Assembly (NCBI GenBank): GCA_948567375.1
Contig: OX419759.1
Coordinates: 38,220,593-38,284,592, forward strand
DNA from: Lunularia cruciata
Lineage: Eukaryota; Streptophyta; Marchantiopsida; Lunulariales; Lunulariaceae
Length of the DNA: 64,000 nt
Direction of reading: 5' to 3'
How positions within the stretch are numbered: position 1 is the stretch's first letter; the number at the start of each line of letters is the position of its first letter. A program made the position numbers and the translations under genes. The notes below the pieces were generated by a model that was given only the letters and a program-made list of their open reading frames with translations, made no database searches and was not told where the DNA came from. Positions 1 through 44,188 of the stretch are shown here, piece after piece.

Positions 1-3000
1 GATGTCCTTGTTGCCATGGAATCTTCAAACTCTTGGATGGCCATTTGTGCATTGTGGAGATGAGAAAAGGGCTCCTATGTGATATCATGAAGAGGATATC
101 CTTTCCAAAGGACCTTATATTCCTTGTGTCATTGGTGGCCACATTGGATGTTGCAACGTGCAAGTATATGATCAAATTTGTATTCCTCATGATTGTTGAC
201 AAGGATGGGAGGACAAGGGAGTTGGACACGAGTGGAAAAGGAAGAGAGATTAGAAACAAAGGGTTTTAACTTGGAAACATGAAAGATAGGATGGATTTTC
301 ATATGACTATGCAAGGCCAATTAATACGCAATTGGAGAAATGAAACATCAAATGGACCTATCCAATAATTAAGAGTAAGTTTTTGAACTTGGATATCAAG
401 TAAGAGAAGAAGGTTACTAGAAGAAAGCATGACCTTATCACCTTGTTGAAAGATGAGATGTTGATTAGTATATTACTTTTGCCCATTTTGAGCAATGAGA
501 AGATGATACTTGGCTTGGTGTAAGGATTTAGATATTATCGACAAGAAAGTGGAAGTATGAGGAATGTGAGATGGTAGTATAGCACAAAAGGAATTTGGAA
601 CAAGTGGGTCTTGCCCAAAATTAAGGAAGTAGGTAGAGAACACAATGCTTGCCTGCTTTGACTATTGTAGGTGAACTTGGTAGTTGCAAGACAAATATCT
701 CAATTGGTATGGTGGATGTTGAAAAAAGGCACAGAGCATATCTTCTAAGGTAAAATTGGCCTATTTAGATTGCCCATCAATTTGAGGATGATAATCCATA
801 GATAAAGCAAATTGGGTGCTAATTAGCTTGAAGAGTGTTTGCCAAGATTTATTAATAAATCAAGGATCATTGTTAGAGATGAGAACCTTGGCATTGTATG
901 GTCTTGGAAACAATATCAAAGTAAATCTTGGCTACTATTGGAGCATTCATAGTGTGTCAAGTGAATTTACTTGCTAATTTTATCAACAAACACCACAATG
1001 GTGGTATGGCCCTAATCTATTTTGGGCAAGGATGTGATGAGGTCAAGATTGGCAAGTTCTCATCAAGCAATTGGAATAAGAAGTGGTTGAAGTAGTCCAC
1101 ATGGTTGTTGGTTATTGATCTTGTTGTGTGGTAATTCTCACAAGATCAAACAAACTCTCAAACTTCTTGTGCCATGTTTGGCCACCATCAATGACATTGT
1201 AGCATACTCAAGATTTTTTCCACCCAAACAACCACCATTTGTAAGTCATGGGCTTCTTGAAGCCACATAAGTTGGAAGTCATCTATAACAAGACCATAGA
1301 TCCTATTCTCATAAAATAAAAGGCACTCCTTGAAGAAAAATGTTATACTCCTTATCATGCACTATAAGACAACTTTGTACCATTCAATAAAAAATTGACC
1401 TCTATATGTACCTTTGAGTTGGTTGACACCATGATTATTGCTAATATCATGGAAGATTCAAGAAGAACCTTCAAATCATGATGTTGTGATAGTGCATCAA
1501 GAATTACATAGAAATTACCAGATTTGTACTCAATTTTGATATCAAAAGATTATTGTTATTCCTCCCATCATTGATGTTGACTCTTCATCGGCTCCAAATG
1601 TAAGATCTATAACAAAGGTTTATGATTAGTGTGAATGATCACTTGTTTCTCCAAGAGATAAAACATTTATGGTATATAACATTACTAATTGTTCTCAATC
1701 TCAATTAAAATGATTATTTTAAGTTATTTAGTCAGCAAGACACAATGGCAATAGGACATAAGCCATCTGGAAATTCTTATTACAATGGCAAAGTTAGAAA
1801 CATCAAAATCAACCACACAAGGTAGTTTAGGATCATATGGTTGGAATATGGGTTGTGAGGACACCATCTGCTTCAAATACTTGAATGCTTCTTTATGCTT
1901 TTTGATCCATGCAAAACTTGACTTCTTCTCCAAGAGATCATTCAATTATTTAATATAGTCACATGAGCATAATAGTGGATGAATCAGAAGTAAAATCTTG
2001 CCAATCCATGAAATACCCAAACTTCCATGGCATCCTTAAGAGTAGACCAATTAATAATGGTCTTGATTTTCTCCTCTTCCATCTTGATCTCCATTATTAC
2101 AACCTTATGACCCAAGAAAGTAACCTCCTTTTGCCAAAAAGCACACTTTGATGTCGTGTAATAAAACTTCCACTAACATAATTGTTGTAAGACTTCTTGT
2201 ACATGATTCTTGTGCTCTACCTCCATCTTACAATAAATTAAAATATCATCCAAGAACACCACCATGTATTGATCCAGTAGTCTTTCCAACACCCAATGCA
2301 TTTGATCCATAAAAACTACCATAACATTAATGAACCAAAAAAGTAAAACACTCCATTCTACCTTGTGCAAAAAAGGTATCCTTTTGCCCATCCTCCCGAT
2401 CAATAGGAATCCGCCAAAAGCCACTTTGTAGATCCAATTTTGAGAAATATTGTGCTCCATTTAATTGATTTGATTTGAGGTAAGGGATATACATTTTGCA
2501 TTATTTTTTTAATTAAGGCCATGGTAGTCAACACAAAATCAAAACCTTTCATATTTCTTTGGTACAAAAAATATTGGTGCTTCCCATGGAAATGAATTAT
2601 GTCATATGAAATCCTTCTCCAAGAACTTTGTCAACTTTGTTCAAAGTTCCTCTAACTCCTTTTGTGAGAGTTGATAGATTGGTCTACTCATAGGAGTACT
2701 ACTTTACAATAATTCAATCTTGAAATGCATAACTTGATTAGAGGTAATCTCTTTGGAAAGTCATATGGAACACATCTACAAACTCTTGAAGTATTGAATC
2801 AACCATTGGCTTTTGATTCTCATCAAAGTCCCCTTGTGTAAAAATTTTGATCTACATTGCAAAGATAGGGATATTATCTTTCAAAGCTTACTCTATAGTT
2901 GCTATATTGACAAACTTCTCATCTTAGGATTGACTATTCTTAGGTGTCTTACTCAAAGATGCTAAACAACCTAATTGGTAATTCTTACCTTAGTGTGTTG

Positions 3001-3186
3001 TACTTGAATTTTTGGTTAGGTCCAATCAAATTGAACCTTATGCCATTCAAGCCAAGGAAGATCTAGAATAATATTGTAATATAAGGGGATGACTAAAAAT
3101 TTCATGTACTAGGAATACTCCTTCCCAATCTTGAATATAATAGGTTGTGAGGTTTGGAATGCAAATCCTTTTCTACCATCTACCAT
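1..3186 (-). mobile_element. Ty3/gypsy chromovirus fossil A, pol portion
   Basis: Minus-strand remains of a chromovirus that also runs off the left edge. Read from right to left, the order is a protease region (about 3186-3000, with an LEWHKVQFDW stretch), reverse transcriptase (about 2900-1950, with a FLDDILIY catalytic-box stretch at about 2250), RNase H start (about 1945-1700), integrase remnants (about 1600-400) and a chromodomain-like tail near the left edge. The tail includes HPIFHVSKLKPF and a KVLWKGYP-type stretch. This order and the C-terminal chromodomain are typical of chromoviruses. The copy is heavily decayed, with well over ten breaks, and looks old. It is cut at its right edge by element B. 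Its gag and LTR continue at 18258-19610, so the two pieces were once one element. Confidence 0.85.
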
Positions 3187-5150
3187 CAAGGTTGAGAGCT
3201 ACAAAGACCCTGTGAAGAGACGGATCATGAGTGCTCTGATGGCTATCCTAAAGCCAAAGAGAACCACTTGTGTGATGAAACACCAAGCGGTGTTCTTCTA
3301 TAAGTTGTTTGCAGGAGAACCAATCAATTGGGCAAGGTGTTTTCACGGGAGAACGAGCCAGATGGTGTGGAATTTGCGGGATAAGTCGCCTCCACACTAC
3401 ATCGTGCCGTTTGCAGCACACTTCTACCTCGGGCTCAACTTGCTGAATTTGGCGGAGTGGACTAGGATGGTATTGCACTTCCATTTGGATGTGCGAAAGG
3501 AGGTCGATATCGAGGAACAGCAGTACATTCTCCAAATCAGGAGCATCGACGACTACTACGCAAAGACAAGGAAGAACGTGGAGGTCACAGTGAGTACCCC
3601 GATGAAGAAGAGGAGTCGGAAAGGAGAAGCCGAAGATAGCAAGAAACCTCAAAAGATGCAAAGAAGTAACCCGAGGCAAAGTATGATGGTGATTGAGTCG
3701 GAGGATGAGGACTTAGAAGGAGATGCCGAGCTCAAAACGGAAGACTCAGAACACGAGGAGGAGCCTGAGCTAACATTGCAGAGTGGAGGTACGAGTAGCA
3801 ATAGTGATGAAGTGGGAGAGATGACATCGGCGCCAGTAGCTGACAAATACGAGGAGGAAGAAGTGCACGCTGAGATGGAGACCAAAGACAGCACACAATT
3901 GGAGGACGAAATGACTGTGCCCGAGGAAAGGAAGATCGCAGTACAGCAAGGAGTTCGCTCAAGACATAAGGCGAAGTGTGAAGCGGGGCTGATTAAAGTG
4001 AAGGAAGAGGTCGGAGAAAGCTCGGGCAGTGAGGCGTCAATTCCGATACAAAGACTGCAAAGGAGAATGCAAGTATCGGGTAAAGAAGAGGTAAGGAAGG
4101 AGATTTCTATGCAGGAAGAAGTAGTTGCAAGAAATGGAGTAGAGTACCTGCAGGAAATTGTGTGTCCATTGTTGGTGAAGTTGGAGTACAAGAAGAAGGA
4201 GATGCAGTCGACTTGTCCAGAGGTAAAGACTGTATTGCAGGTGTTGGTGAGATTAGAAAAAGAGAACTCGGAGTTGAATAAGAGTGTAACCCAAGGTGAG
4301 GAGGAAAGGGAAGTACTGCGAGCGGAGGCAGTAGAGAGAATGCAGGTAATTGAAGACCTGAAAAGAGAAGTGAGCTATCGAGAGGAGCTTGTGAAGAAGA
4401 GTGACATAGCAAGGGAGAGACAAGTAGCTGAATACGATATCTTGAAGCAACAATTTGTTTATTCAAGAGTAGAAGTTATCCATGCTATGGCGAGAGTCGC
4501 AGCAAAGGATCAAGAGCTCGATAAAGTGATGGAGAGTATGGAGGAGAAGAAACAACTCTGGCAACGAGAGTTGGCGGCGCAATATAGAGAAGAAGACCGA
4601 TTACAAGAATTACTTTGTAATCAGGAGGAGAAGGTAGTACAGAAGGAGAAGGAGAAGGAGAAGGAGAAGGAGACGGTGAAAGCCAAATTTGAGGAGGAGT
4701 TGGCAATGTACAGAGAGGACTGGCTTGCAGATCGGGAACGAGAAAGGAAGACAAGATTGGAGCCGATAAAGGAGATTGTCCTCCAGATGAATGCAATGTT
4801 GAGTACAGAGGCCAGCGTTCGAATTGAAGAGACGAGACTGCACGAGTTGAAATTGTTGGTGAAGGAGACGAGGCGAAGATAGGCGGAAGACACCGAGATG
4901 AATGCCTTGTTGATTAAATTGAGAACTCATGTAGATAGGAAGATATTAGAGGTAGAAGATAATATTGCGATTAGACTAGACTTAGTGAAAATAGAGATAG
5001 AAAAGCTTTGGAAAGATGTTGAAGCAAAACGTGAAGTAGATAACATAGGAGTGCAAATGTCTTTGGAGTTACCATCAGAGACATTAGAGAAGAGTGGGTC
5101 GGGAGATAAGGAGTTAGATAGATTACCCACTAGTGGAATTTCAGATTAGG
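3187..5150 (+). other. Long open region inside the LTR of element B (coiled-coil protein, fossil)
   Basis: The 5' LTR is open for well over 500 codons in the same direction as gag-pol. The predicted product starts with a globular part of about 100 residues, including AGEPINWARCFHGRT and VPFAAHFYLGLNLLNLAE. A very acidic and basic middle follows, with runs such as ESEDEDLEGD. The C-terminal half is rich in Glu, Lys, Arg, Gln and Leu and has a strong coiled-coil look. The same protein is legible in the 3' LTR on both sides of insert C, and its start there lies further upstream (about 12.78-13.43 kb). No family is recognised with confidence. The INWAR-containing part distantly recalls domains described as putative plant transposon proteins, which is only a guess. 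Extra ORFs are known in Athila and Ogre relatives but usually lie in the internal region, not in the LTR. The region belongs to a broken element. Confidence 0.6.
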
Positions 5151-6072
5151 AAAGAGAGTTGTTGGAATTGGTAGAAGAAGTAGGAGATATGAAACCCGAG
5201 GAAAAAGTGATAGGAAGTAAGATTACTTCGGGTTTGGGTTTGAAAGCCAAGAAAGAAGTAGACATCGGATCAGAGTAGTAACAAATTTGAGATTTGAAGA
5301 GGCAGATATGAAGAGGTGCATTGTCATTTTGGATCTGAAGGTTAGAAGAGTTGTTGTAGAATGGTATAGTTGTTAGAACTATCGATTTGTTCACTACTTA
5401 AGAGTGGCATTCGCAATATCATGTTGTTTAGTGCTCATTATTTCTGAGAATAGATAAAGCGAAGTGCTGTGAAGCAGTGCTCGTCGCTTGAGCTTGATTC
5501 CAAGTATCAACTTTGTGATTATGTTTGTGAGTGTGTGGAGAAATTCAAAGTGCAAGTCAGAGTGCTTGTTGGATGTTGGATTCCACAACCTTGATCTTCA
5601 TTCTGTGTGTTTGATCTTGAGTGAAGTGCAATCAAAGCAATGCCTTGACAAATCTGAGAGGAATTGTAGTGTTGGTAGTATTCTGCATTTGTGAGTGCAG
5701 TGCAAAGTTGATGTGAAGCAATTTTGATCGAGGAAGTTGTGCCTTCAGTGGAGGGGTGGAACACAATTCTGAGGCAAAGTCATTTTGCAGTGAAGTGCCA
5801 TTTTTGGGAGAGCCTGAATTATCACAATCAAGATTGTTTGGAAAGATTTGATGGAGTTGTGATTAAGAAGTGTTAATTTGTGACAAGACTGCGAGTCAGT
5901 GCTTGTTACTCTCTTGTGGGTGTGGTTTCTACCTGAGAGATTAAAGACGCAACCAAGAAGAACTACATTGTTACTGTTTGCTTTGTATTTGACCAATTTT
6001 GACTTGTATCTCTGCGGGAACAAACTTTACTTACCTGATTACTGCAAAAGTGATATTTGCCGGGTTGTCACA
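3187..6072 (+). repeat. 5' LTR copy of element B
   Basis: This stretch is repeated at 13130-18257 with about 95 percent identity in sampled parts, leaving aside insert C. It ends in TGTCACA just before the primer-binding site, exactly as the 3' copy ends at 18257. The outermost part of the 3' LTR has no counterpart here. The sequence begins directly against chromovirus A with no visible TG terminus. Confidence 0.85.
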
Positions 6073-6079
6073 TGATTTT

Positions 6080-6097
6080 TGGCGCCGCTGCCGGGGA
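6080..6097 (+). other. Primer-binding site of element B (tRNA-Asp type)
   Basis: TGGCGCCGCTGCCGGGGA lies seven bases after the TGTCACA end of the 5' LTR. This sequence is the well-known minus-strand primer site of Athila and Tat/Ogre elements, complementary to the 3' end of tRNA-Asp. It fixes the LTR/internal boundary. Confidence 0.9.
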
Positions 6098-9000
6098 TAC
6101 AAATCTGAAAAGTGGAAGAATACAAAGCCAAATTGGAAACTGGGTATCAACGCAATATGAATGTCTGCATCGAGAGAACAACGGGAAGAGAGAGCTCGAA
6201 GACGAGCACTTCAGCATGAAGAAGACAAACGTCTGAACGTCCCATCCCTCGTTGACAAAACTGAACGAGAGGCATTGGATTTTCAACTCCTTCATGAAGT
6301 GCAAGAAGCCCTGCAAGAACTCGATCACAAGAAACGCGAAGGCGGTTGGCAAGGCTATTTTGCATCTCCCTCTTCTTCCAAAAAGAAGAAAGAATCGAGT
6401 GTGCAAACATATGCATTGCGGCCCAGTACACCAACTTCCCCTAGAGCTGTAAAGGAAGTTGTGTCCTTGAAGAACTTTGTTCGAGACAAGACAGCAAGAA
6501 CACTTACTGAAGACGAGTGTCAACATCTTCTACAAACAATTCCTTGGTTGTCCCAAAGGAATTTTGAAGAACCAATTGAAGGCATTGATCCTGAATCTTC
6601 CACTCGGGTTGAAGTTGACACCCTCATAGAAGAAATTGTCAAAGAAGACCCCACCTTGAACTTGACAAATTGGAATCCTTGGGCTGACAACATGGCATTA
6701 ATACCAGCCAATCCTTCAGTTCCGTCAAGTTCAACACTACCTCAGCCGATCCCTATGCATCGAACAATGACTTTGCTGCCTGTCACCCGACACGCCTATC
6801 AAAAGTATAAGGGAACAGAACAAGATGAAGACCCCGATGAATTCATCAAAGAATTCAAAGTCATCTCCTTTGCTAACAAGGAGCATGACTCGGCGGATTG
6901 ATTGAGAATTTTCCCAAGTTTGCTCCGCAAGAAAGCTTGGAGCTAGTACACCCATGTGACCCAAAAGGGGTTCGTACCAGCGGACTGGGCAGACTTGAGA
7001 AACAACTTCCTGGAACAATTCCGTGAGGTTGACTACGACACAAGTATCTTTGTAGCACTCAACGATTTGGACCGAGGCAAAAAGGAGAAGTTGAGAGACT
7101 ACTTTGAGCAGTATATGGCACTATTGAACCGAGTTCCCAAGCAATTGGGGGTGGTGGGTTACTCCGATGCCCAAGCCATTACCTGGTTCCTCTAGGGCCT
7201 TTCACCAGAGATATGAATCTTTGCCAGGGAGAGGAATGTAACTTCCCTTGACAAAGTACTCAAACATGTCGCTTGTTATGAAGCGGCCCACTCTCACTAT
7301 GCCGGTCCGGAGAAATCGGAAGAAGAAAGGCAAGAAGCCCAGAAGGAGAGCTTTGTGCAACACCTCCCCTTCTTTGGACAAATGCTCTACGTGTTTGAGC
7401 TCTTCTTCAGAATTCAAAGAAGAATCAAAGCCAAGACGAATCAGAAGACGTGGAGGCAAGAAATCAATGACTCCTCCAGCAAAGAGTGTACATAAGGCGG
7501 ATACCAAGCTGGATGCCCTCATCAAGGAGTTTTTGGATTTCAAGCTCCAGATGATTGGGGCCAAAGACCAAAAGAAGGCCCTAGCATTTGGACGATCTAA
7601 TGTGTGGTGCACCACATGTGGCAAATCCGGCCACGCCAACACAGAATGCAATACTCGTAATGCATTCCCGGTGCAGCAAATTGATTGGGTTCCAGGATGG
7701 AACCAAGACGAGGACAAAGAGGCGGTGTACCAAACTTAGGAAGGACAGCCTCAAGCGATCACATCGAATCAAGGTCCGAGGTTTGGACCTAGGGAGTATA
7801 ACCCCAATGCTCCTCCACAAAGACCACCAATGAGCAACCAAAATCGGCCTCAGAATGTTGCACCCGGAGCCTGTTATAATTATGGCTCAATGGGACATTG
7901 GTCTCCAAACTATCCCGAGCCAAGAAGGCAACTTGGGTACGTTCCTTTGTGCGGAAATTGTAAAGGATCGGGGCATACGGGCAACCAATGTCCTTACCCA
8001 CCAAACCCGAAGCCGCATGTAAAGTATGTACAGACCCCCGCTGAGCGTGCAGCACTTCAGCCAAAGGAGGATACAAATGTAAATTGCATTACCCTTGAGG
8101 AAGAAAGACCTCAAGAAGGGAGTCCGGCCTCAGAAGGAAAATGGCCAGACCTTGAAATTTTGAAGGTTGAGACACGCTCCAGTAAGAAGAAGCGTGATCC
8201 CGAAGAACTGAGTACGACCTTGTTGTCTTCGAGAAAGGCGAAGAGATTGCACCCAAAAGCAATTCTTTCTGCTAAGGAGGAAAAAATCCTCGCAAAAGCT
8301 AAAGCTAAAGCCTTGTAGAAAGAACTAAAGGAGGCACTACTCAAGACTCGGGAACAGAGTTTGGAAGAGGAGACGAAGACAAAGTCTCTAGTTTTTCCGG
8401 CGGACATCTGATCCAAAGTAAAGGGTCTGATCCAAGCCGAGGTGGGCCAACCCAAGGAACCTCGGGTTAAGGCCATCAGCAAGCCCGTCACCATTTTGAA
8501 GCATCCCAAAGTCAAGATGGAACATGGAGAGACTTCAGATCCAAAGCCAAAGGCAAAGATGGTCAAATTGGGAGGAGTTCCCCAATATGATATTGTAGCA
8601 GATCTGGCAACCACAAATGCCAACGTAACATTCAAGCAATTGTGGGAAGATAACAAGTTGTACAAGAGACAACTGAATTCGGCCCTCAAGAAGGTGAGGT
8701 TGATGTCAAAGAAGGACCTGCCTGCTATCTATTGTATTGAGCAAGAAGATTTGGGATCTCCCGAGGTAGACGCGGAGATTTCAGGGTGCATGATCACATT
8801 GATATCCATTGACTCTGGGTCCGGTGTGAATGTCATGACCGAGGATACTGTGAATCGACTTGGGTATCACACGTTTGAACCAACATCCCGACTGTTGAAG
8901 TTTGCAGACCAAACCAAGAGACGGCCTTTGGGCATGCTGTCAAACATTACCATGATCATTGGAGGGGTACCCTTCAAGTTGAATTACATTGTGTTGCAAC

Positions 9001-12000
9001 CAGTGACAAAGACTGGTTACCCTCTGTTGATCGGCAGACCCTGGTTGTCTAGTGCCCAAGTTGTGGTGGATTGGCATCAACAGAAGTTACGATTCAATGA
9101 TATCTCGTCCGAAGAGCAGAAGCTGGTGACTGTGAGTTGGACGAAGGTTCCCCATCTTGGGGAAACAAGTTTGTTGGAAGAGGAGGACAAATCCGAGGAC
9201 TCATCGTCTTCGTCCTCAGATGACTCCGAAGACAAAGTCCAAGTTAATTACTTGGAATGCTACGAGGTGGATGTTGAGGACAAAGATCCATATGACCTTG
9301 CCTCTGGTAAACCTGACTTGGAGGAAGGGGGTTTGATGGCCGCTCGCCTCGGGTTAAGCCGAGTAAGCCATGTTGAAGGAGTCATCAACCCCGATGACTG
9401 TCAAGATGTTTTATTAACTGAAGGAAAAATTTTAAAAATTTCAAAGACAATTACTTTGGAGGAGTTGGCAGGATACACTGCCCTATTTATAGAATTCTAG
9501 GATGTATTTGCCTGGTCAATTGATCAAATGCCAGGTATTCCATGAGAATTTGGACAACACCGGATTGATCTAGTTGAAGGTGCAGTTCCGGTTTAGCAAC
9601 GACAATACCGCCTGAACCCGAAGTACTCGCTTTTGGTGAAAGATGAAATCAACAAGTACTTAGGGGCCAGAATCATCTTCCCTGTCTTAAGCAGTGAATG
9701 GGTCTCCCCCATTGTCATTGTCCCAAAGAAGAAAACATGGAAGATCCGAGTGTGCCAAGACTTCCGAAAGCTGAACGCAGTCATGAGGAAAGATCATCAT
9801 CCCTTGCCTTTTACTGATACAATTTTAGATCAGGTAGTTGGGCATCCTTGTTATTTTTTTCTCGATGGATTTTCAAGGTACAATTAAGTATCCATTCAAG
9901 AAGAAGACAAGGATAAAACTACATTCACGACCGATTGGGGCACTTTCACTTACAATCAAATGCCCTTTGGGTTGTGTAATGCCCCCGCTACTTTTCAACG
10001 GATGATGAATTCAATCTTCAAAGATTTTTTGTGTAAATTTGTGGAAGTCTTCATTGATGATTTTTGCGTGTTTGGGCGAAGAGAGGTACATATAGATTAT
10101 CTTTGCCAAACGTTTGAAAGGTGTTGTTTTGCCGGCTTTTCATTACACCCGGAGAAATGCTTCTTCGCAATGAAGGAGGGAATTTTTCTGGGGCATTGGG
10201 TGTCAAGCCGAGGTATTGAAGTTGATGTTGAGAAGGTTAAGATAATCACAGCTTTGGAATCCCAAAGAACATCCGGGAGCTGAGAACCTTCTTGGGACAT
10301 GTCGGATATTACAAACGCTTCATGTCAAACTATGCAGTACTTGTTGCACCACTTACAAAGCTTCTAAAGAAATCCGAAGACTATCTAAGGGAAGCAAATC
10401 AAGAAGAAGCTTTTGAGGTGTTGAAGAAGAAGCTGTTTGAAGCACCAGTTATGAGGGCCCCAAATTTGGACGTCCCTTTTCATGTATATGTGGACACTTT
10501 ATCCATGGCCATCAGAGTTGTCTTAAGTCAAAATGACGAGAAGAAGAAGGACTACCTGATGTATTATGCCAGCCAACAACTTTCAGTCTCTAAAAAGAAT
10601 TACTTGATGATTGAAAGAGAAGCACTCGAAATGGTGTATGCCTGCAAGAATTTTGTCATTATTTGTTGGGGTATGAGTTTGTCTTCTATGTTGACCATTA
10701 TGCCTTGCAACATTTGGTCAAGAAAGCAGATTTATCGGGACGAATTGCAAGATGGATCTTGTTGTTACAAGAGTTCACGTATATTGTACAAGTAAGGAAG
10801 GGAGCTTTGCATTCAAATGCGGACTTCCTGTCCAGGAGTGGGAAATTGACGATCGGTTCCCTGACAAAGAGTTGTATCACTTATCAGCAATGCAAAGTAC
10901 AAGGTATGCAGCTGAATATAATTATCTGAATACTCTCCATTTTCCTCAAGGGATGGACCCGGAATAGAGGGCAGTCTTTCTCAAGAAAATGGGGCCGTAC
11001 CAGCTTAAACACAACATTTTATTAAGATGGGCGAAGACGAAGTACTTCAGCGATGCTTGGAGACATACAAAGTAGGAGGAGTGATTGAATCTTTACACTC
11101 TGAAGCATTGGGAGGACATTATGCTTTGAAGAATACTGTAAAGAAAATTCTTTTGGTAGGGTATTGGTGGCCTACAATGTACAAAGATGTACATGCTCAT
11201 ATCCGAAGTTGTGATGCTTGTCAGAGAACGGGGAAGCCGACGGCTACTTCTCAATGGCCTTTGAGACCAATTTTGCCTTTGGCCCCATTTGAGAAATGGG
11301 GAATTGATTTTGTGAGTCCCATTCAACCAGTGACCCGAGTCACAAGAAAGCGCTACATTTTGGTTTGCACTGACTATGCTACCAAGATGGTCGAAGCTGA
11401 AGCAACTCGTAGAGATGATGTTGAAACTGTGGCGGAATTTTTCTTTCGAAACATCATCTCCCGATATGGGTGTCCTTTGGAATTGGTCAGTGACCAAGGA
11501 ACACATTTTTTGAACTCTATAATGGAGGCGTTAACCAAGTACTTTCAGATTAAACATCGGAAGATGACTCCTTACAACCCTAAAGCAAATGGCTTAATGG
11601 AAAAAGCGAATGGGTTACTTTGTAAAATTTTGAATAAGGTGATTGTCAATTATGCCTATGACTGGGATACGAAATTACCAGCCACGTTGTGGGCATATCA
11701 AACAGCAGAAAAGATTACAACCAAACAAACTCCGTACTTCTTGACATATGGCTTGCATCCCATACTGCCAGTTGAATTTGAAGTTCTGACATATTGGGTT
11801 CTTTGCGAAGAACAAATGTCGGAAGAAGAAAGTTAGGATCTTTGGATTCATCAACTGATGTGGTTAGAAGAGAAAAGAGACGATGCAATGCAAACCATGA
11901 AAGAAGTACAAGCACAGAGGAAAGTCAGGCACGATAAGAGAATCAAGCCTGTGACTATACGAGAAGGAGATTTGGTTTTGTTATATGACAATTGCCGAAT

Positions 12001-12206
12001 ATTTTTTCCAGGCAAGTTGCATTTGAGATGGATGGGTCCCTATTGAGTTCTTCATCTTTACGAAAATGGGTCCATGCAGCTCATCGACTTGGAAGGTAAT
12101 CCTTTTGCCAATCAAGTAAACGGGTGGAGAGTTTGGAGATATTGGACCATAGACGCGGAAGTTCCTAAAACACCCGAGGTCTATGTTTGCGGGGACACTC
12201 ACATTT

Positions 12207-12217
12207 GAGGAAGGGGG
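12207..12217 (+). other. Polypurine tract of element B
   Basis: GAGGAAGGGGG stands immediately before the TGTGGTGCCC start of the 3' LTR at 12220. Its position and purine content fit the plus-strand primer of an LTR retrotransposon. Confidence 0.75.
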
Positions 12218-14329
12218 TATGTGGTGCCCACATTTTTTGTTTTTCTTCAAAATAAAGGAGAAGAAGTGTATAGAGAAGTTGGATTGCGCCTATATGGCCA
12301 AAGAAGGCAAAGAAAAGAGTCTTCGGGATGAAACCCAAAGTAAAGTGACTTTGGGTCATAAGGCGAAGTACTTGGAAATGCCCTGTCAGCATACAACCCG
12401 AAGTAAATTGTCTTCATATCAGGGGGAGCTCAACCCAAGGTGAAGACAGTCTAACAACCTTTTGTTGGGGCAAGAAATTCAAGAAGGGGCCGTTTAAAAA
12501 CTTGTGGCCCTTACGTGCAAAGGTTTATTGACAGTGACAGGTGCATGCTGGAGGTGTGATTTCTTGGTAGAAATTCGAAGTGACGGAAGACAAAGAAGCG
12601 CAACTCTATAAAAATTGAACTTGCAACGACAAAATGTTGAGTAATTTTCCTTTGCCGCTGAGAGGTCGTCTTGTAGGTGATCGTGGGAAGGGAAATAGAG
12701 TTGGAATTGTGCTAGTCGTGAGGGAGAAGTCGCGAGAGTGAAATCAAGAGAGAGTGAGAAGGTAGAAGAGATGGGAGGAGGGAAGAAGAACTCCAAATTT
12801 CCAATGAGAAATCATGCAATTTGAAGGTTAGATGTGATAGCAAGGATTGAAGTCTTGAGCCGACTTCGGATCACCTTTCTGGCATGGAGCTGGAATGTAA
12901 GTTTTCCAGGACTCATGACAGAAATCATCGTGAGTAAGTGTCTTGATGGACCCGAGGAAGAAGCAAAGAGAGGAAATCCGGCTCGCTGGACAGAGTCGGA
13001 TTGGAGACTTGTACTCGGGAAGGAAGCAGGCCCTGAGCAGGGAGCCATGTTCTTGGGAAAGGGAGAGATAGCCCAGGAAACTCAGGAGGTTAGAGATGCC
13101 TTCTCGTCAAAACAGACGAAGAATGGCTACAAGGTTGAGAGCTACAAAGACCCTGTGAAGAGAGGGATTGTGAGTGCTCTGATGGCTATCCTAAAGCCAA
13201 AGAGAACCACTTATGTGATGAAACACCAAGCGGTGTTCTTCCATAAGTTGTTTGCAGGAGAACCAATCAATTGGGCAAGGTGTTTTCACGGGAGAACGAG
13301 CCAGATGGTGTGGAATTTGTGGGATAAGTCGCCTCCACACTACATCGTGCCATTTGCAGCACACTTCTACCTCGGGCTCAACTTGCTGAATTTGGCGGAG
13401 CGGACTAGGATGGTGTCGCACTTCCATCCGGTGTCGTGGGGAACGTTTGGTCTCGAGAGTGCGCCGAGCACATGGCTGCTTGTGCTTAGTTTTCCCTACT
13501 GTCCTTCTTTTGGGTCTTTCCCATAGACTGACATTCCTTCCCTACTCCTGGTTTGTCGGGAATTTGTCTCTATATGAACCTGTTGTTTCAGTTTCCCTAA
13601 GGTTGGCTCTCCCTGAAGGTTTTGTTTTATCCTTGACTTTCATAAATTTAATCTTGTCATGCTAGTCTGGTGTTATGGTTTCTACCTCTACCTGGTCTCA
13701 TATTCTATTTTCACGTCAGGTTCAAGCTATGGTTCGGGATCTGGCAGTTCATAGACCTAGGTCAGGTGGCCCTTTAATAAAATAAAAGAAAAAGAAAAAA
13801 CAACTGAGTGATCTAACCAAACATAAACCCGGGCCTCCAGATCATTTACTTAGGCTATTCACATGGACCAGACTGAGAGTTCCTAGAATGGAGTTTTCCT
13901 CAACTCTAGTCACAATTCATAACACAATCCGCTTCTAAGATTCATCATTCACAGGAGTTTCAACAACAACGTTCACAAGGTTGGATAAGTCAAATAGTTC
14001 TAGTCAAGACAATGCCTGCCCTAAGGTTGCAACTGATCATCAACTCAGCCGGCAGTTCACATATATTCTGTCCGGCAGCATGCAAGGCAATTCACCCTCC
14101 AAACCTCTTCATTCTCCTATGCCCTGTTTTGCATATCAGATTCACTCCATTCAGACAGGCCAACCAACTTCAAATCTTTCTTGCCTTTGTTCCAGATGAG
14201 CTGAGCCACCTCAAAATTCTCCTCCTTTTCTTCCTGACTAGCTCCTATCACTGCCTGTTCAGTCACTCTTCACAACATCTTCCCAAAAAAAATTATATCT
14301 TTCTTCTTCACTCCTATCCTCACCTTCGG

Positions 14330-14650
14330 GAGATTATCCTTTGGCAACTTCTGCAGCAAATCCCCTTCAGACCTGCAAAAATTCCTCTCCAATTCTGTCC
14401 CTCAACACTCTATCAACATTTTCACATTGAAATCTCTCTTCCTCAGTCCTGTTCTCACCTTCGTGAGAGTTTCTTTTGCTACTCTTGCAGCCTGCCCTTC
14501 AGACCTGCGAAAATTCTCTTTCCAATTCTGTCCCTCAACACTCTATCAACATTTTCACACATAAATCCCTCCTCCTCAGTCCTGTTCTCACCTTTGTGAG
14601 AGTTTCTTTTGCTACTCCTGCAGCCTGCCCTTCAGACCTACAAAAATTGC
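14330..14650. repeat. Tandem array, about 132-bp unit, a little over 2 copies
   Basis: The block containing CCTTCAGACCTGC and CAACACTCTATCAACATTTT recurs, with marker spacings of 132 and 133 bp (14371, 14503, 14636). It is the first of four consecutive arrays in insert C. Confidence 0.75.
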
Positions 14651-14779
14651 CCTTCTGTCCAAGCACTTCCTCTCCTGCACATTTGTTCATTCCTTCAAGA
14701 AGAAACCTTTCTCTCCCCTGCACTCTCAAGTCCCTAACAGTACCTGCTAAAATTGTCCTCTTGCAACCTCACCAAACCA

Positions 14780-15298
14780 CTTCACATTGCTGCAAAATTT
14801 GTCTTCGTGCAGCCCTCACAAACCCCTTCACAGTCCTGCGAAAATTGCCTTCTTGAAACACTTTCTGCCCTGCACTTTCAAGCCCTCACATTCCTGCAAA
14901 AATTGCCTTCATGCACCTCACCAAAACCCATCACAGTCCTGCAAAAATTGCCTTCTTGAAACACATTCTGCCCTGCACTTTCAAGCCCTCACATTCCTGC
15001 AAAAATTGCCTTCATGCACCTCACCAAAACCCGTCACAGTCCTGCAAAAATTGCCTTCATGAAAACACTTTCTGCCCTGCACTTTCAAGCCCTCACATTC
15101 TTGCGAAAATTGCCTTCATGCACCTCACCAAAACTCATCACAGTCCTGCGAAAATTGCCTTCATGAAAACACTTTCTGCCCTGCACTTTCAAGCCCTCAC
15201 ATTCCTGCAAAAATTGCCTTCATGCACCTCACCAAAACCCATCACAGTCCTGCAAAAATTGCCTTCATGAAACACTTTCTGCCCTGCACTTTCACATT
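14780..15298. repeat. Tandem array, 103-104-bp unit, about 5 copies
   Basis: The marker CTGCCCTGCACTTTC recurs at 14865, 14968, 15072, 15176 and 15279. Each unit also holds CCTGCAAAAATTGCCTTC twice, so a shorter half-unit is embedded in it. Copies are more than 90 percent identical. Confidence 0.9.
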
Positions 15299-15309
15299 TT
15301 GAAAATTCC

Positions 15310-15495
15310 TCTCCTGGTCCAAGCACAGCCCTGCACTCTCACATTTCGAAATTTCTCTCTTGGTCCAAGCACAGCCCTGCACTCTCACATTTCGAAATTG
15401 CTCACCTGGTCCAAGCACAGCCCTGCACTCTCACATTTCGAAATTGCTCTCCTGGCCCAAGCACAGCCCTGCACTCTCACATTTCGAAATTCCTC
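15310..15495. repeat. Tandem array, 46-bp unit, 4 copies
   Basis: CTGGTCCAAGCACAGCCCTG recurs with an exact 46-bp period (15315, 15361, 15407, 15453). Each copy carries CTCTCACATTTCGAAATT. The copies are nearly identical, which implies recent amplification or homogenisation. Confidence 0.92.
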
Positions 15496-15589
15496 TCCTG
15501 TCCAACTCAAAAATCCTGGCCCTGATTGTTCCTCTTCCACCCTTCAGTTCTCAAGAAATTTTCTCCCCTGCACTCTCAAGCCCTCCTGT

Positions 15590-15955
15590 CCAACTCAAAA
15601 ATCCTCTCCTGTGTGTCTTCCTCTGTCCAAACCCTCCAGCTTCTCGAGAATTTCTCCTCCTGCCAAACCCTCTCCTGTCCAACTCAAAATCCTCTCCTGT
15701 GTGTGTTCCTCTATCCAAACCCTCCAGCTTCTCGAGAATTTCTCCTCCTGCCAAACCCTCTCCTGTCCAACTCGAAATTCCTCTCCTGTGTGTCTTCCTC
15801 TGTCCAAACCCTCCAGCTTCTCAAGAATTTCTCCTCCTGTCAAACCCTCTCCTGTCCAACTCAAAATCCTCTCCTGTGTGTGTTCCTCTGTCCAAACCCT
15901 CCAGCTTCTTGAGAATTTCTCCTCCTGCCAAACCCTCTCTTGTCCAACTCAAATT
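15590..15955. repeat. Tandem array, 88-bp unit, 4 copies
   Basis: CTCCTGTGTGT recurs at 15606, 15694, 15783 and 15871. Each unit includes CCAAACCCTCCAGCTTCT and GAATTTCTCCTCCTG. It is the last of the four arrays of insert C. Confidence 0.92.
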
Positions 15956-18257
15956 TTTTTTTTCTGATTTTTCCTCTGTCCCTAAAAGCCTTCATGACTA
16001 CTCCTTCCTAATCATTCCAGCCCCTTTTGATTCACTTCCTTCCTCCCACCTTCTGTCCTCTGCCCCCAAACTCCTCCTGTCATTCCCGAAAAAAAAAACC
16101 CTATTTCTCCCAAAACTCCTCTGTCCCTTTTCAAAAAAAAACCCTACTCCTTTCTTCTCCCAAAAATTTTTGCCACTCTTCTCGAAATCCTCTGCCAAAC
16201 CCTCTCGAAATCTTTTGGCATTTTGTGAAAACCCTCAGCCCTTCTCTGTCTCCTCACTTTCTCCCAAAACAAGATAGCAAAACCACACCCGAGATATATT
16301 ATCATAAATCCCTGTTCCTTACAACAAATAAAAGAGAAAAGAAAATTCATCACACCAAAAGCCTCAAGGGTACACGTGGGCTATTTTCCCGACAACACCG
16401 GATGTGCGAAAGGAGGTCGATATCGAGGAACAGCAGTACATTCTCCAAATCAAGAGCATCAACGACTACAACACAAAGACAGGGAAGAACATGGAGGTCG
16501 CAATGAGTACCTCGACGAAGAAGAGGAGTTGGCAAGGAGAAGCCAAAGATAGCAAGAAACCTCGGAAGATGCAGAGAAGTAACCCAAGGCAAAGTATGAT
16601 GGTGATTGAGTTGGAGGATGAGGACTCAGAAGGAGATGCTAAGCTCAAAACGGAAGACTCGGAACATGAGGAGGAGCCTGAGCTAAATACGAGATCTTGA
16701 AGCAACAATTTGTTGATTCAAGAGTAGAAGTTATCCATGCTATGGCGAGAGTAGCAACAAAGGATCAAGAGCTCGATAGAGTGATGGAGAGTATGGAGGA
16801 GAAGAAACAACTCTGGCAACAAGAGTTGGCGGCGCGATACAGAGAAGAAGACCGATTACAAGAATTACTTCGTAATCAGGAGGAGAAGGTAGTACAGAAG
16901 GAGAAGGAGACGGTGAAAGCCAAATTTGAGGAGGAGTTAGCAATGTACAAAGAGGACTGGCTTGCAGATCGGGAATGAGAAAGGAAGACAAGATTGGAGC
17001 CGATAAAGGAGATTGTCCTCCAGATGAATGCAATGTTGAGTATAGAGGCCAGCGTTCGAATTGAAGAGACGAGACTGCATGAGTTGAAATTGTTGGTGCA
17101 AGAGACAAGGCGAAGACAGGCAAAAGACACCGAGATGAACGCCTTGTTGATTAAATTGATAACTCGTGTAGATAGGAAGATATTAGAGGTAGAAGATAAT
17201 ATTGCGATTAGACTAGACTTAGTGAAAATAGAGATAGAAAAGCTTTGGAAAGATGTTGAAGCAAAACGCAAAGTAGATAACATAGGAGTGCAAATGTCTT
17301 CAGAGTTACCATCAAAGACATTAGAGAAGAGTGGGTTGGGAGATAAGGAGTTAGATAGATTACCCACTAGTGGAATTTCAGATTAGGAAAGAGAGTTGCT
17401 GGAATTGGTAGAAGAAGTAGGAGATATGAAACTCGAGGAAAAAGTGATAGGAAGTAAGATTACTTCGGGTTTGGGTTTGAAAGCTGAGGAAGAAGTAGAC
17501 ATCGGATCGGAGTAGTAACAGATTTGAGATTTGAAGAAGCAGATATGAAGAGGTGCATTGTCATTTTGGATCTGAAGGTTAGAAGAGTTGTTGTAGACAG
17601 TATAGTTGTTAGAACTGTCGATTTGTTCACTACTTAAGAGTGGCATTCGTTGTATCATGTTGTTCAGTGCTCATTATTTTTGAGAATAGATAAAGCAAAG
17701 TGTTGTGAATTAGTGCTCGTTGCTTGAGCTTGATTCCGAGTATCAACTTTGTGATTGTGTTTATGAGTGTGTGGAGAAATTTGAAGGGCAAGTCAGAGTG
17801 CTTGTTGGATGTTGGATTCCACAACCTTGATCTTCATTCTATGTGTTTGATCCTGAGTGAAGTGCAATCAAAGCAATGCCTTGAAAGATCTGAGAAGAGT
17901 TGTAGTGTTGGTAGTATTCTACATTTGTGAGTGCAGTGCAAAGTTGATGTGAAGCAATTTTGATCGAGGAAGTTATGCCTTCAGTGGAGGGGTGGAACAC
18001 AATTTTGAGGCGAAGTCGTTTTGCAGTGAAGTGCTATTTTTGGGAGAGCCTGAATCACCACAATCAAGATTGTTTGGAAAGATTTGATGGAGTTGTGATT
18101 AAGAAGTGTTAATTTGTGACAAGACTGCGAGTCAGTGCTTGTTACTTTCTTGTGGGTGTGGTTTCTACTTGAGAGATTAAAGATGCAACCAAGAAGAACT
18201 ACATTGTTACTATTTGCTTCATATTTGATCAATAGTGATATTTGCCGGGTTGTCACA

Positions 18258-19769: not shown

Positions 19770-22700
19770 GGCCAAATTAGCCATGAAATATAAGAAGATT
19801 CTAGAAACATCTAGGAAGCTACTTGGTACCTTCCAAGCATTGGGTAATATGCATGTTAAGTGATGACTTATAGGAGGAAGCTTCTTGGCTAGCTTAGCTT
19901 GCATGCAAAATAGATGGCTTCTTGAAGGAAACATCTTGAGAAACTTCCTAACTAGCTTAGCTTGCATGCCAAATAGGTGGCTTGTAAAAAAAGCTTCTTG
20001 AGAAGCTTCTTGATTAACTTGGCTTGCTCTCAAAGAAGAGAATTTTGAGAAGCTTCTTAAGAAGCTTCTCAAGAGCCTTGTATATTCCCTATAAATACCA
20101 TATCCAAATCTCATACTAAGCATTTGGAATTTAGTTTACTTGTAAGTTAATAATCTCTGATCATGTTTGTAGGATTGTGATTGATTTTGGAAGTTTAAAG
20201 AATTGCATGTCCATGCAATTATCAAAGGAATTAAGTATTCCTATTGAACCAAGAACTAAAAATAGATTGATAATGGCAGATGCTAAAAAAGGCTCTATAT
20301 TCTATAACTCACATCCTATTACATTCAAGATTAGGGAGGAGTGTTTGGAATGTATAAGGTTTATGATGGCACTTCTACACTATGATGTCATTTTAGGTTT
20401 GCACTATTTTGAATGTTGTAAGATTCAATTTGATTGGACTCAATAAAAAATTCAGGTATAACACCAAGGTAGGGATTGATTAGGTTGTCTAGCACCTTTG
20501 ATTAAAAAAAACTAAGAATATTTATTCCTAAGATAGGAATTTTGTTAGTAAAGCAACCATAGAAAAAGTTTTGGAAGAAGATAAGTCTATTTTTGATGTG
20601 GATCAAGCTTATTGCTTATGGAGAATTTGATGAGGGCCAAAAGCCTCATCAAGCAATGGTTGATCAAATAGTTCAAGAGTTTTAAGATATGTTTGTAGAT
20701 GATCTACTGAAAGGATTACCCTATGATAGTGGTATGCCTTTCAAGTGGTATGCCTTTCAATATTGAGTTATTTCCAAGAAGTACTACCAATCTATTGAGT
20801 AGACCAATCTATTGACTCTCATCAAATGAGTTAGATAAGCTTCAAGCAACATTGATGGAGTTTTGAGAGAAGGATTTAATACAACATAGTACACTTCCTT
20901 GGGAAGCAATAGTACTATTTGTCCCAAAGAAGGATAGAAGAATTCACTTTTGATTTTTTGATTGATTATTGTGGCCTCAATAAACAAATAATGAAGAATG
21001 CATATCTCTTGCCTCAAATTGATGAATTGTTAGATCAATTGAGTGAAGCATGATACTTCCCCAAGTTGGATCTCCAAAGCAACTATTGGTAGATTCCCAT
21101 TGATAGAGAGGATGTGCAAAATCTTACCTTTTGAACAAGGTATGGGTACTTTGAATGGAGTTATACCTTTCAGGCTCACAAATGCTCCAACAATCTTTAT
21201 GGATAAGATGCATTGGGTGTTGGATGGGCTATTGGATTGATACATTATGGTGTTCTTGGATGATATTTTAATCAATAGCAAGATGGAGGTAGAACATGTA
21301 AATCACGTGCAAGAAGTCTTAAGACAATTAGGTCAATGGAAGTTCTACTACAAGAAGTCAAAGTGTGCCTTTTGGTAGAAGGAAATTACCTCAACTAGGT
21401 CAATGGAAGTTCTACTACAAGAAGTCAAAGTTTGCCTTTTTTGGTAGAAGGAAAGTACCTTCTTGGGTCATAAGATCTCAACAAAGTGGATCAAGATGGA
21501 AGAGGAGAAAATCAAGACCATAACTAATTGGCTTACTCTAAAGAATACCATAAAAGTGTAGGCATTTAATGGATTGGCAAGTGCTCATGTGGCCACACCA
21601 TTGATTGACCTCTTGGGAGTATGGAAGCATTCTCTCTTGAGGAAACAAGTGATCATGCAAATTGATCATAAACCCTTATTGCAAGCATTACATTTAGAAC
21701 ACGTGAAGGGTCAACATCATTGATGGAAGGAACAACTATACTTGTTTGACATCAAACTTGAGTTTAAACTTGGTAGGTTCAATGTCATCCCTGATACCCT
21801 ATCATGATGACCTCATTTGCAAACTCTTCTTCCCATCATGGTGGCAATTAAAATAATGTCAATTGACTAAAAAGCCCAAATCAAGTTTAGGATTACTTTA
21901 CAACAAGACTCTTTTTACACTCTTTACAACAATGATACAAGGTTGTCTTGTAGCACGTAACAAGGAATACAACACCTTCTCCTTCAAAGAAAGCCTTCTA
22001 TTTTGTGAGAATTGGATCTACGTTCCAACCAAGGGTGATATATGACTTGTGCGCCTTCAAGAAGCCCATGACTTACCAATCATTGATCACATGGGTACAG
22101 ACAAGACCTTGGGTACCCCACAATACTAATGGTAGTGGCCCAACATGGTACAAGATGTTCAAGAGTTTGTCCAATATTGTAAGAGTTGTCAATGCAACAA
22201 GGCCAGCAACCAAAAACCGAGGGGCCTCCTTCAACCATTTCTCATCCCATCTTCTTGATAGGAACACGTGAGCTTAGATCTCATCACCTCCTATCCAAGA
22301 CAAAGCAAGGTCACACAACAATTATGGTGTTTGTGGATTAGCTTAGTAAGCAAATCCATTTGGCACTAACCTTTGATATAGTGGATGCTCCAATATTAGC
22401 CCAAATCTACTTCAGCAATGTCTTCAAGCATCATGGGATGTTTCATGTACTCATCTCCAATCGTGATCTCCAATTCATAAGAAAATTTTGGCAGACACTC
22501 TTCTATATACTCGGCACCAAGCTTACTTTGTCCATTGTCTATTGTCTTCAAGCTGATGGAAAAATTGAACATGAAAATTTCACCTTGGAGGATATGCTCT
22601 ATGTCTTTGTCAACATTCACAGTACCAAATAGGATGAATGTCTTATAGTTGCTTAGTTTGTCTACAATAATTCCAAATAAGCAAGCATTAGATTCTCTTC

Positions 22701-23650
22701 TTCTTCCTTAATTTTGGCTAAGATCCACTTGTTCTAGATTTTATTCTTTCTCCTCCTCCATCTCATGTCCCTCAAAATTCCACCTTCTTGACCACAATAC
22801 TCCAATCCCCACAAGAAACCAAATCCCATATCCTTGTTGCTCAAAATTGTTTGAAACAATACGCAAACCAACAACATCGTGATCTTACTTTTCAATTTGG
22901 TGATAAGGTCATATTTTCTTCTTGTAACCTACCCTTTCCCCTTGATGCCCAAGTTCTTAAACTTATTTCTAATTGGATAGGCCCATTTGATATTACCCAA
23001 ATCATTTCTCTAATTGCTTAACAACTTGCCTTGCCTTGTCATATGTCCATCCACCTTGTCTTTCATGTTTCCAAGTTGAACCCTTTGTTTCTAATACATC
23101 TTTCTTTTCTTCTCATGTCCAACCTCCTCCTCCTCATATTGTTATCAACAATCATAAGGATTATGAAGTTAATCATATCCTTGCATGTCACAACATTCAA
23201 TGTGGTTGCCAATAACATAAGGAGTGCAAAGTCCTTTAAAAGGGTATACCCTTCATGATGCCACTAGGGAGCCTCTTTCTCATATCCAAAATTCATAAAT
23301 GGCCATCTAGGAGTTTGGAGCTTCCATGATGATGAGGACATCACCAATTACCAGTGGAAGAATATGTAACAATATGGAGTTTATCGACGAGTTAGTCAAA
23401 AATAGGCCAAATTAGCCAAGAACTATAGGAATATTCTTGAAGCATCTAGGAAACTACTTGGTACCTTCCAAGTATTGGGAAATATGCATAGCAAGTGGTG
23501 ACTTCTAGGAAGGAAGGTTGTTGGGAAGCTTCCCAATTAGCTTGGCTTGCACTCTAAGAAAGTAGCTTTTAAGAAGCTTCTCAAGAGCTTTGTATACTTC
23601 CTATAAATACCAAAGCCCAAACTCATGCTAGGAATTTAGAGGTCCCTCAT
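19770..23650 (+). mobile_element. Ty3/gypsy chromovirus fossil A', plus strand
   Basis: A second member of the family of A, in the opposite orientation. LTR-like sequence (about 19770-20170, TATAAATACC at about 20090) is followed by a protease region (about 20177-20446, with VILGLHYFECCKIQFDW), reverse transcriptase (about 20700-21450, VFLDDILI), RNase H (about 21500-21800), integrase (about 21860-22700) and a chromodomain tail with HVSKLNPLF at about 23065. A second LTR-like stretch follows (about 23390-23650, again with CTATAAATAC at 23601). The two LTR stretches are only moderately similar by eye, so the element is old. It is badly decayed, with more than ten breaks. Both ends are uncertain by 100 bp or more. 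Confidence 0.8.
20047..20100 (+). promoter_or_regulatory. LTR promoter with palindromic GAA/TTC cluster and TATA box
   Basis: A perfect 24-bp palindrome at 20047-20070 is built from two GAAGCTTC blocks separated by TTAA. This is the nGAAnnTTCn pattern of a heat-shock element. CCTATAAATACC begins about 20 bp later (20089). More GAA/TTC inverted blocks lie upstream (19990-20010), and a similar AAGAAGCTTCT plus TATA arrangement stands at 23572-23610. Heat-shock factor control is inferred, not shown. Confidence 0.45.
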
Positions 23651-43800: not shown

Positions 43801-44188
43801 TGATCATTTGCATTTCATGAGTCCTGGATAACCTGCACCCAAAACGGCTTCTGCTCTCATATACCTACCTATATATTCGTCATAAAGTCTAGAATTTAAG
43901 ATCAGGTAGTTTGAATGCTAAGTAAACACTGGGACGAGTGGTACAGAACGCATTACAGGCTCCTCGTTATTTCTCAAGAATTTCTGAATCTTGTTTTCAA
44001 TTCTTTGCAGAGTGTTGATGGCGGAGGCAGAAAAAGCAGCCAATGCTTTAGAAGCGGCTGCCTCGAAGGATGAGTTTGCAATGGCATCTTTGACAGAGAC
44101 ACGGAGGCTTATGGCAGAAGCTGCCCGGTTAATTCAGACTGCTGAGTCTGGAAAGATAAGATTGACAGGTTCGAATCAGCCTTTGTAA
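37826..44188 (+). CDS. NUMOD3-motif protein, probably plastid-targeted (7 exons, 537 aa)
   Basis: Exons: 37826-37854, 38039-38556, 39588-39640, 39909-39949, 40180-40492, 40853-41334 and 44011-44188. All join in phase. The start MLALSVTFTR opens a Ser/Arg-rich, acid-poor N-terminus of about 60 residues that looks like a transit peptide. The core motif GLANKGKVPWNKGRNHSP then ETIERIRERT (about residues 165-193) is a classic NUMOD3 module, a DNA-binding unit first described in homing endonucleases. Weaker repeats follow: DETRIKIRNKLREKW and TAAHRQRISAAIRAKWEDP. The region between them is highly charged and helical. The C-terminus (KAANALEAAA...ETRRLMAEAARLIQ) is alpha-helical. Plants are known to have nuclear NUMOD3 proteins of unknown function with this architecture. 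No nuclease domain is seen, so it is not an active homing enzyme. Intron 2 has a GC donor. Start codon and plastid location are inferred. Confidence 0.87.
38626..39312. repeat. Intronic dispersed repeat, copy 1 (intron 2)
   Basis: Begins TCCCTTTGCTGTTTAG and ends near CATATACCTACATATCTGG. It matches 43302-43890 at nearly 90 percent, and 42516-42975 in part. A 90-bp piece with CATGTACATCTTGCTTAC and GTTCTGGATAACCCGTTCC is itself duplicated at its right end (39106-39180 and 39209-39300). It is non-coding, and I see no termini of a known class. Confidence 0.8.
41733..41760. repeat. Perfect 12-bp stem hairpin in intron 6
   Basis: ATATATCACAGC, loop GCTT, then the exact reverse complement. It lies inside intron 6 of the NUMOD3 gene. 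Confidence 0.9.
42170..42380. repeat. Intronic dispersed repeat, partial copy
   Basis: Shares the ATTATGCC, ACCATGTACAT, TTGCTTAACGATC and GTTCTGGATAACCCGTTC blocks with the right half of the other copies. It is more diverged, about 75-80 percent. Confidence 0.65.
42516..42975. repeat. Intronic dispersed repeat, copy 2 (intron 6)
   Basis: Starts inside the family at CTCCCTATTACTTTTCC and runs to the GTTCTGGATAACC block. It contains its own 49-bp tandem duplication (42647-42695 and 42696-42744, TCTATTACATAACACTTCC). Confidence 0.78.
43302..43890. repeat. Intronic dispersed repeat, copy 3 (intron 6)
   Basis: Aligns with copy 1 in intron 2 over its whole length at nearly 90 percent: TCAGGACTCAAGCGTCCATA, CACACCATCCTATA, GTTCCACTCCTCCAT and more. 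It ends about 120 bp before the last exon. Confidence 0.82.

Follow-up and report, generated by a model that had tools for sequence, protein, structure and literature searches.

Does the long terminal repeat (LTR) of a plant gypsy element carry a conserved gene of its own? LTRs are commonly regarded as control signals only, and they are treated as non-coding in annotation and in insertion dating. The question is raised by a gypsy element of Lunularia cruciata in which a protein-coding frame had been noticed inside the 5′ LTR. We analysed this element in a 64,000-nucleotide stretch of contig OX419759.1 (hereafter, the window) and compared it with copies elsewhere in the genome. These comparisons show that the frame resides in the LTR itself, and we predict that it is probably a conserved accessory gene of a non-chromodomain, Athila-like gypsy family.

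The gypsy element in the window

The element lies on the forward strand at 3187-18257 and was delimited by its LTRs, primer-binding site, gag and pol pieces and polypurine tract. The surviving part of the 5′ LTR (3187-6072) is a direct repeat with 13130-18233 and ends in TTGTCACA at 6065-6072. Its initial ~0.9 kb is gone, at the break with 1-3186, and position 3187 is the junction with a foreign antisense gypsy pol fragment (1-3186) rather than a gene start. The primer-binding site TGGCGCCGCTGCCGGGGA, which we take to be tRNA-Asp-like, follows directly after the LTR at 6080-6097. Broken pieces of a gag region (6161-8318) were recognised as ORFs with zinc-knuckle-like motifs; the Pfam zf-CCHC match in this region is sub-threshold (16.9 bits vs. 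a cut-off of 20.8). Broken pieces of pol (8442-11836) stand in the order protease, RT, RNase H, integrase, with RNase H and integrase above the Pfam cut-off, the protease sub-threshold and the RT identified by eye. Neither a chromodomain nor an additional archaeal-type RNase H was among the Pfam matches to the subset of frames scanned. The polypurine tract GAGGAAGGGGGTA (12207-12219) directly precedes the 3′ LTR (12220-18257), which runs from TGTGGTG to TTGTCACA and is enlarged by an insert. Repeat pieces of the 5′ and 3′ LTRs are 92-97% identical.

The window also holds other repeats. Two pieces of another gypsy pol, 69-79% identical, lie in inverted orientation at 1-3186 and 20273-23342. Dispersed repeats at 38620-39311, 42092-42959 and 43296-43872 (72-91% identical) are found near gene-like frames, and NUMOD3 is matched weakly, under its cut-off, by a frame at 38046-38588 (E 0.00094).

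Extent and damage of the LTR frame

The initial annotation had described an open frame at 3187-5150. The frame is real and occupies 3188-5149, within the surviving 5′ LTR and upstream of the primer site. However, it is not fully open, as an in-frame TAG at 4880-4882 precedes the TAG at 5147-5149, and 3187 is not its start. The frame of the family also extends past this end, because 27 of 30 copies read (exceptions L002, L005 and L017) share a stop, which falls at +684 to +697 when codons are numbered from the start of the window frame; this position corresponds to 5276-5281 in the window. The 5′ copy can thus be drawn at 3188-5278 on the forward strand, with the family stop at 5276. The start ATG was placed at codon -72 and is present there in 26 of the 30 copies (absent from L001, L009, L011 and L029), which gives a family frame of ~760 codons in an LTR of ~3.75 kb.

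The first 72 codons are missing from the 5′ copy in the window, and only the 3′ LTR of this element has these N-terminal codons and the upstream promoter region. The 3′ copy begins with its ATG and head domain at 12915-13427, is split by a 2.97 kb foreign insert (13428-16399) containing 46-, 88- and ~104-bp tandem units, and resumes at 16400-17515, where 652 bp (the counterpart of 3774-4425) are missing and a TGA stands at 16976. With one copy cut and carrying stops and the other split and missing 652 bases, both window copies are broken. By eye, the ends of the insert look inverted (GTGT...ACAC), and it is perhaps a DNA transposon.

Most copies examined are now broken. Stops per copy ranged from 0 to 11 among the 30 read, with zero only in L022, and only three of the 77 places scored in a protein search, the window among them, were stop-free over the matched part. 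Other family members keep the frame, the point for which the initial annotation had suggested a genome-wide survey, but they seldom keep it intact. Relative to the most frequent alternative codon, a single C-to-T or G-to-A substitution suffices to explain 102 of the 165 in-frame stops in the 30 copies, the pattern that decay of methylated DNA would be expected to give. Among the indels that distinguish 28 copies from L022, 70 of 81 are multiples of three, although many are common to several copies and are not independent.

Location of the frame in LTRs of other elements

LTR stretches were fetched from 10 other element places (one pair from the protein search and nine of 19 primer-site places), excluding most of the region between the two LTRs. 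The frame was present in both LTRs at six of the 10. These were L031/L032, L033/L034, L035/L036, L043/L044, L047/L048 (over the entire length) and L039/L040, in which both LTRs have large deletions. L037/L038 carry a diverged frame in both LTRs, the 3′ one interrupted. L041 and L049 have the frame in the 5′ LTR; L042, the partner of L041, gave zero frame match and L050, the partner of L049, only opposite-orientation matches. At L045/L046, all that survives is a piece of the LTR tail and a remnant of the frame.

In all six frame-bearing pairs, a primer site follows the 5′ LTR and a polypurine tract precedes the 3′ LTR. The LTRs have TG...CA ends with single changes (L047 starts with TA and L048 ends with CT). 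Target duplications of 5 bp were exact in three pairs (AGTAG, GCTCT and CCAAA), had one mismatch in a fourth, were absent from L033/L034 and were unreadable in the sixth. For the window element the duplication is unreadable, its 5′ LTR being truncated. Since primer sites, polypurine tracts and target duplications frame the LTRs, the LTR boundary is real and does not lie downstream of the frame. This bears out the proposal that the frame belongs to the LTR, which in the window was seen from a 5′ copy upstream of the primer site and its recurrence in the 3′ LTR.

The L042 region (C1:38722000-38729000) has features of its own. On its minus strand, 6279-7001 and 2542-5250 form a gypsy-type pol and methylase region, with a 903-aa pol frame (RT, RNase H, integrase) that has a PHD finger at its end (E 6.1e-11). 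Upstream of this pol, and oriented like it, is a match to a C5-cytosine DNA methylase that passes the cut-off (E 1.2e-7). A stretch in the flank of L022 resembles this region by eye.

Purifying selection on the frame

Selection was assessed on L001-L030, which yield 435 pairs for the whole frame. As these 30 had the highest scores among the 77 scored places, which came from 26,941 initial candidates, the sample is biased towards conserved copies. Foreign sequence in the first 72 codons of L001 (the window) and L011 and a shifted frame there in L009 and L029 were all kept in the N-terminal counts. Pooled pN/pS was 0.336 in frame vs. 0.676 and 0.874 in the other two frames, and the codon positions held 0.289, 0.242 and 0.469 of the differences. 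The corresponding pN/pS values were 0.219 vs. 0.840 and 1.283 for the head (codons 0-140) and 0.268 vs. 0.592 and 0.799 for the coil. In the non-coding LTR tail (0.621, 0.730, 0.545) and in U3 (0.734, 0.670, 0.753), none of the frames is set apart in this way, and the stretch upstream of the conserved ATG, which is open in L022, gave a weak signal (0.512 vs. 0.694 and 0.709).

The ratio of third-position to other diversity, scanned in 30-codon windows, was 1.36 at codon -60 and 2.31 at -30. It lay between 1.2 and 3.9 from 0 to +570 (lowest 1.22), was 1.43 at +600 and settled at ~1.1 from +630 to +690. The excess is strong from about codon -30 to +600 in a scan that is noisy, with non-coding windows reaching 1.54 and one upstream window (-150) reaching 1.93.

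LTR pairs served as a control, since the two members are identical when an element inserts. Within six LTR pairs, among which L033/L034 was retained although it may not be one insertion, differences fell on the codon positions as 167/163/201 and pN/pS was 0.449 vs. 0.534 and 0.693. Three disjoint between-element pairs gave 240/175/520 and a pN/pS of 0.231; the two distributions over codon positions differ clearly (chi-square p 6.6e-11). Across all 15 pairings of the six 5′ LTRs, pN/pS was 0.240 vs. 0.856 and 1.213. Because differences are near-even within pairs and third-heavy between elements, the bias arose mostly between elements, over transposition cycles, rather than after insertion. Thus, the comparison of synonymous and nonsynonymous differences that had been suggested for the LTR copies comes out in favour of a coding frame when it is made between elements. 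Within pairs, which differ by JC distances of 0.031-0.092 with transitions making up 81-88% of the differences, the in-frame pN/pS is still below that of the other two frames, and gene conversion or selection may have left a small residue. Taken together, these substitution patterns show that the frame was kept by purifying selection across transposition cycles.

A second subfamily and a distant relative

A second subfamily, represented by L037 and L041, aligns collinearly with the first (39-41% identity over 704-721 codons), and the alignment shows the same frame to be common to at least two subfamilies. L022 vs. L037 gave a dN/dS of 0.22 overall and 0.13 in the head, and L003 vs. L041 gave 0.23 overall with a head ratio that is not usable. 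Synonymous sites are saturated between L022 and L041, making that ratio unusable. Within the second subfamily, L041 vs. L037 gave 0.28 overall and 0.35 in the head, the latter raised by the first ~55 codons from L041, which are out of frame.

A third, distant family is represented by L054 (C6:49178578 region), which has a decayed head with stops, 36% identical to the LTR frame (tblastn 6e-23). This head lies ~960 bases after a sequence that resembles the LTR start (17 of 18 bases, E 0.004).

Copy number and probable solo LTRs

The genome contains 351 junctions between polypurine tract and LTR start that match with at most one mismatch (169 forward and 182 reverse; control 0), and a slightly different pattern matched exactly at 292. 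The LTR start alone matched exactly at 2308 (1148 + 1160; control 0). Elements with two LTRs should give a junction/LTR-start ratio near one half. The observed 292 vs. 2308 suggests, from pattern counts, that many LTRs are solo, although decay of old tracts also lowers the ratio. At the protein level, the window frame scored 77 places; one is on C14 and the other 76 are spread over eight contigs of 60-85 Mb. Contig C74 of the genome carries a plastid-type rbcL of land-plant, bryophyte-like appearance. A search with the second subfamily scored 150 places from 20,781 candidates, and 28 of these were stop-free over 232 codons (a hand count that includes the query's own place).

Putative promoter and placement of the gene within the LTR

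The only TATA box common to at least eight of the 30 copies is present in 26 of them, at a distance of ~390 bases from the LTR start and ~310 bases upstream of the ATG. In the window it lies on the forward strand of the 3′ LTR at 12607-12613 and is the presumed promoter of the frame. With this box upstream, the frame would follow the start of transcription. If transcription does begin at this box, U3 would span ~0.4 kb and the gene would fill most of R/U5. RNA from the 5′ LTR would then have the gene as its first cistron, strong-stop DNA would copy the gene in each cycle, and a solo LTR would retain promoter and gene together. Gag-pol would be positioned 3′ of a 760-codon frame, with splicing, reinitiation or a second promoter as options for its translation. 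An AATAAA in U3 (window ~12250) occurs in 27 of the 30 copies; it lies upstream of the TATA box and would be useless as a poly(A) signal for a transcript starting there. A second AATAAA falls inside the coding frame in 11 of 30 copies.

The sag gene of mouse mammary tumour virus lies in U3, and in sag, primate lentivirus nef and foamy virus bel/bet, coding sequence lies in or runs into U3. The present frame shares with these genes a protein-coding sequence in or reaching into the LTR. The initial annotation had drawn the comparison with sag, which is apt as regards coding in the LTR but otherwise loose; sag lies in U3, whereas here the common TATA box is upstream of the frame, and the likeness drawn here is one of position. 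A placement in U3 like that of sag can nevertheless be imagined for the present frame. The genomic RNA would start in the ~0.8 kb non-coding LTR tail, and the protein would be made from the 3′ LTR copy or from a separate upstream promoter. Few non-coding stretches show as little diversity as the tail (about codons +780 to +900), and with gag following it, gag would be the first cistron and its translation would be solved. However, no TATA-like site in the tail is common to at least eight of the 30 copies, in contrast to the box upstream of the frame, and we regard this arrangement as unlikely.

The predicted product

The product consists of a head of ~190 residues from the ATG, followed by basic, acidic and long, charged, coil-like parts. 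The basic stretch is made of Lys/Arg clusters around residues 212-236, recognised by eye and weaker in L014. The acidic Ser/Glu stretch has a net charge of -16 or -17 over residues 251-300 in the three copies checked. The long C-terminal region is rich in Glu, Lys, Arg and Gln and nearly free of Pro and Gly; residues 381-680 of L022 hold three Pro and two Gly. Heptad periodicity over these 300 residues was reached by eight of 500 shuffles and was not notable in shorter windows. The head and charged coil-like part that had been annotated were both recovered, but the coiled coil itself is seen as composition and weak heptad periodicity rather than as a structure. The predicted structure of the window head, made from a two-row alignment, had a mean pLDDT of 37.6 and no confident fold.

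Nothing in Pfam scored above cut-off with the frame, the head or several copies, and the three copies checked were free of membrane-like segments (maximum 19-residue Kyte-Doolittle mean, 1.26). This agrees with the earlier view that the product fits no gag, pol or env. Athila ORF1 (PF03078) did not match the frame at E up to 10 and gave no match in the genome, although it gave none in the control genomes either. Transposase_28 (PF04195) and the plant mobile domain (PF10536) were not among the frame matches up to E 10. A PDB sequence search with the head returned nothing up to E 10. In the protein database, 7993 candidates were scored with the window frame, a query that began with 19 foreign codons, and 209 with the head of an extant copy; none reached E 0.001 or E 1, respectively. 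Four other Pfam families (E 0.089 to 9.1, one protein each) were taken as chance.

The head of one copy, L053, matched Transposase_32 (PF20167) at positions 76-160 of 177 with 22.9 bits and E 8.8e-5, against a curated cut-off of 45 bits. L054 matched positions 69-163 with 20.3 bits, and the other heads scanned gave no match. A genome search with Transposase_32 scored seven candidates, with four places up to E 1 and a best score of 22.0 bits, at a copy of the family itself; the two places that were fetched proved to be a copy of the LTR-frame family and the distant relative. In the L053 match, ~22 of 85 residues, ahead of the head, are read in a shifted frame. Because of this shift, and because L053 is the best of many copies, the similarity is a lead to a possible remote link and does not establish membership.

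Based upon the basic stretch seen by eye, the acidic stretch, the coil and analogy with other systems, we favour the reading that the product would be an accessory nuclear protein. It may self-associate through its coiled coil and aid the family in trans. Its route of action could be chromatin or anti-silencing, or escort of RNA or cDNA, as proposed for other extra ORFs. A role outside the nucleus, in which the protein would act as a Gag partner in particle or RNP assembly, is in keeping with the coil-like region and with a sense frame 5′ of gag. The separate downstream gag with its zinc-knuckle-like motifs and the basic and acidic stretches of the product weigh somewhat against such a role, and it appears improbable.

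It is also conceivable that an older element's upstream extra ORF was swallowed as the primer site moved, and that only its remains persist. Excerpts of one survey document plant gypsy elements with extra ORFs upstream of gag (PMC6317226), and most copies of the present frame have stops. In contrast, the between-element pN/pS of 0.24, together with a third-position excess across two subfamilies that both carry the frame in the LTR, makes this very unlikely. An origin by such swallowing may still hold; it is the lack of function that is disfavoured. Although some Athila relatives carry env-like extra ORFs (PMC7264820, in the part available), an env-like protein is hardly credible for a frame that sits 5′ of gag and whose product, in the three copies checked, lacks a strongly hydrophobic segment.

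Relation to known systems and implications

The VANC proteins of VANDAL transposons are anti-silencing proteins. By analogy, VANC may be a functional counterpart of the LTR-encoded protein, as an accessory protein acting in trans on its own family, although VANDAL, unlike the family studied here, is a DNA transposon. If the LTR-encoded accessory gene acts in this manner, the LTR could be a self-contained cassette of promoter and trans-acting protein that is duplicated with each insertion, and solo LTRs could feed the family an anti-silencing or targeting factor. We put this extension forward tentatively, and it is more doubtful than not.

Plant gypsy OTA elements commonly carry extra ORFs. The available part of a survey sorts these into ones upstream and ones downstream of the polyprotein and gives LTR lengths of up to ~5 kb (PMC6317226). 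Some of the 5′ eORFs of that survey could, judging from these excerpts, be LTR-resident like the present frame. In the portions available of two other reports, aORFs are placed in the internal region, and nuclear or DNA-binding roles are proposed for other plant gypsy extra ORFs (PMC7264820; PMC11963269). A further paper, in the excerpt at hand, speaks of "long noncoding terminal repeats" (PMC6431247). Rotifer elements carry extra ORFs as well, and the excerpts of that study contain no LTR-resident gene (PMC5408684). Athila ORF1 (PF03078), the Ogre plant mobile domain (PF10536) and Retand Transposase_28 (PF04195) are likewise lineage-specific extra proteins of large non-chromodomain gypsy elements. 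As far as the partial sources go, however, those extra ORFs lie up- or downstream of gag-pol or internally, while the present frame lies in the LTR in sense orientation. We found no report of a conserved gene in a plant LTR in the open-licence literature. With extra ORFs common in gypsy elements and no LTR-resident case found in that literature, the frame is best described as an extra ORF of known type in an unusual place.

An LTR-resident gene has consequences for how such families are studied. When LTRs of different elements are compared, coding and non-coding rates are mixed. If the gene lies in R/U5, minus-strand strong-stop DNA must copy the whole of it. Solo LTRs can hold the gene and its promoter together. 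Since the protein can be followed apart from gag-pol, this family would offer a testable case for the role of the extra proteins of plant gypsy elements.
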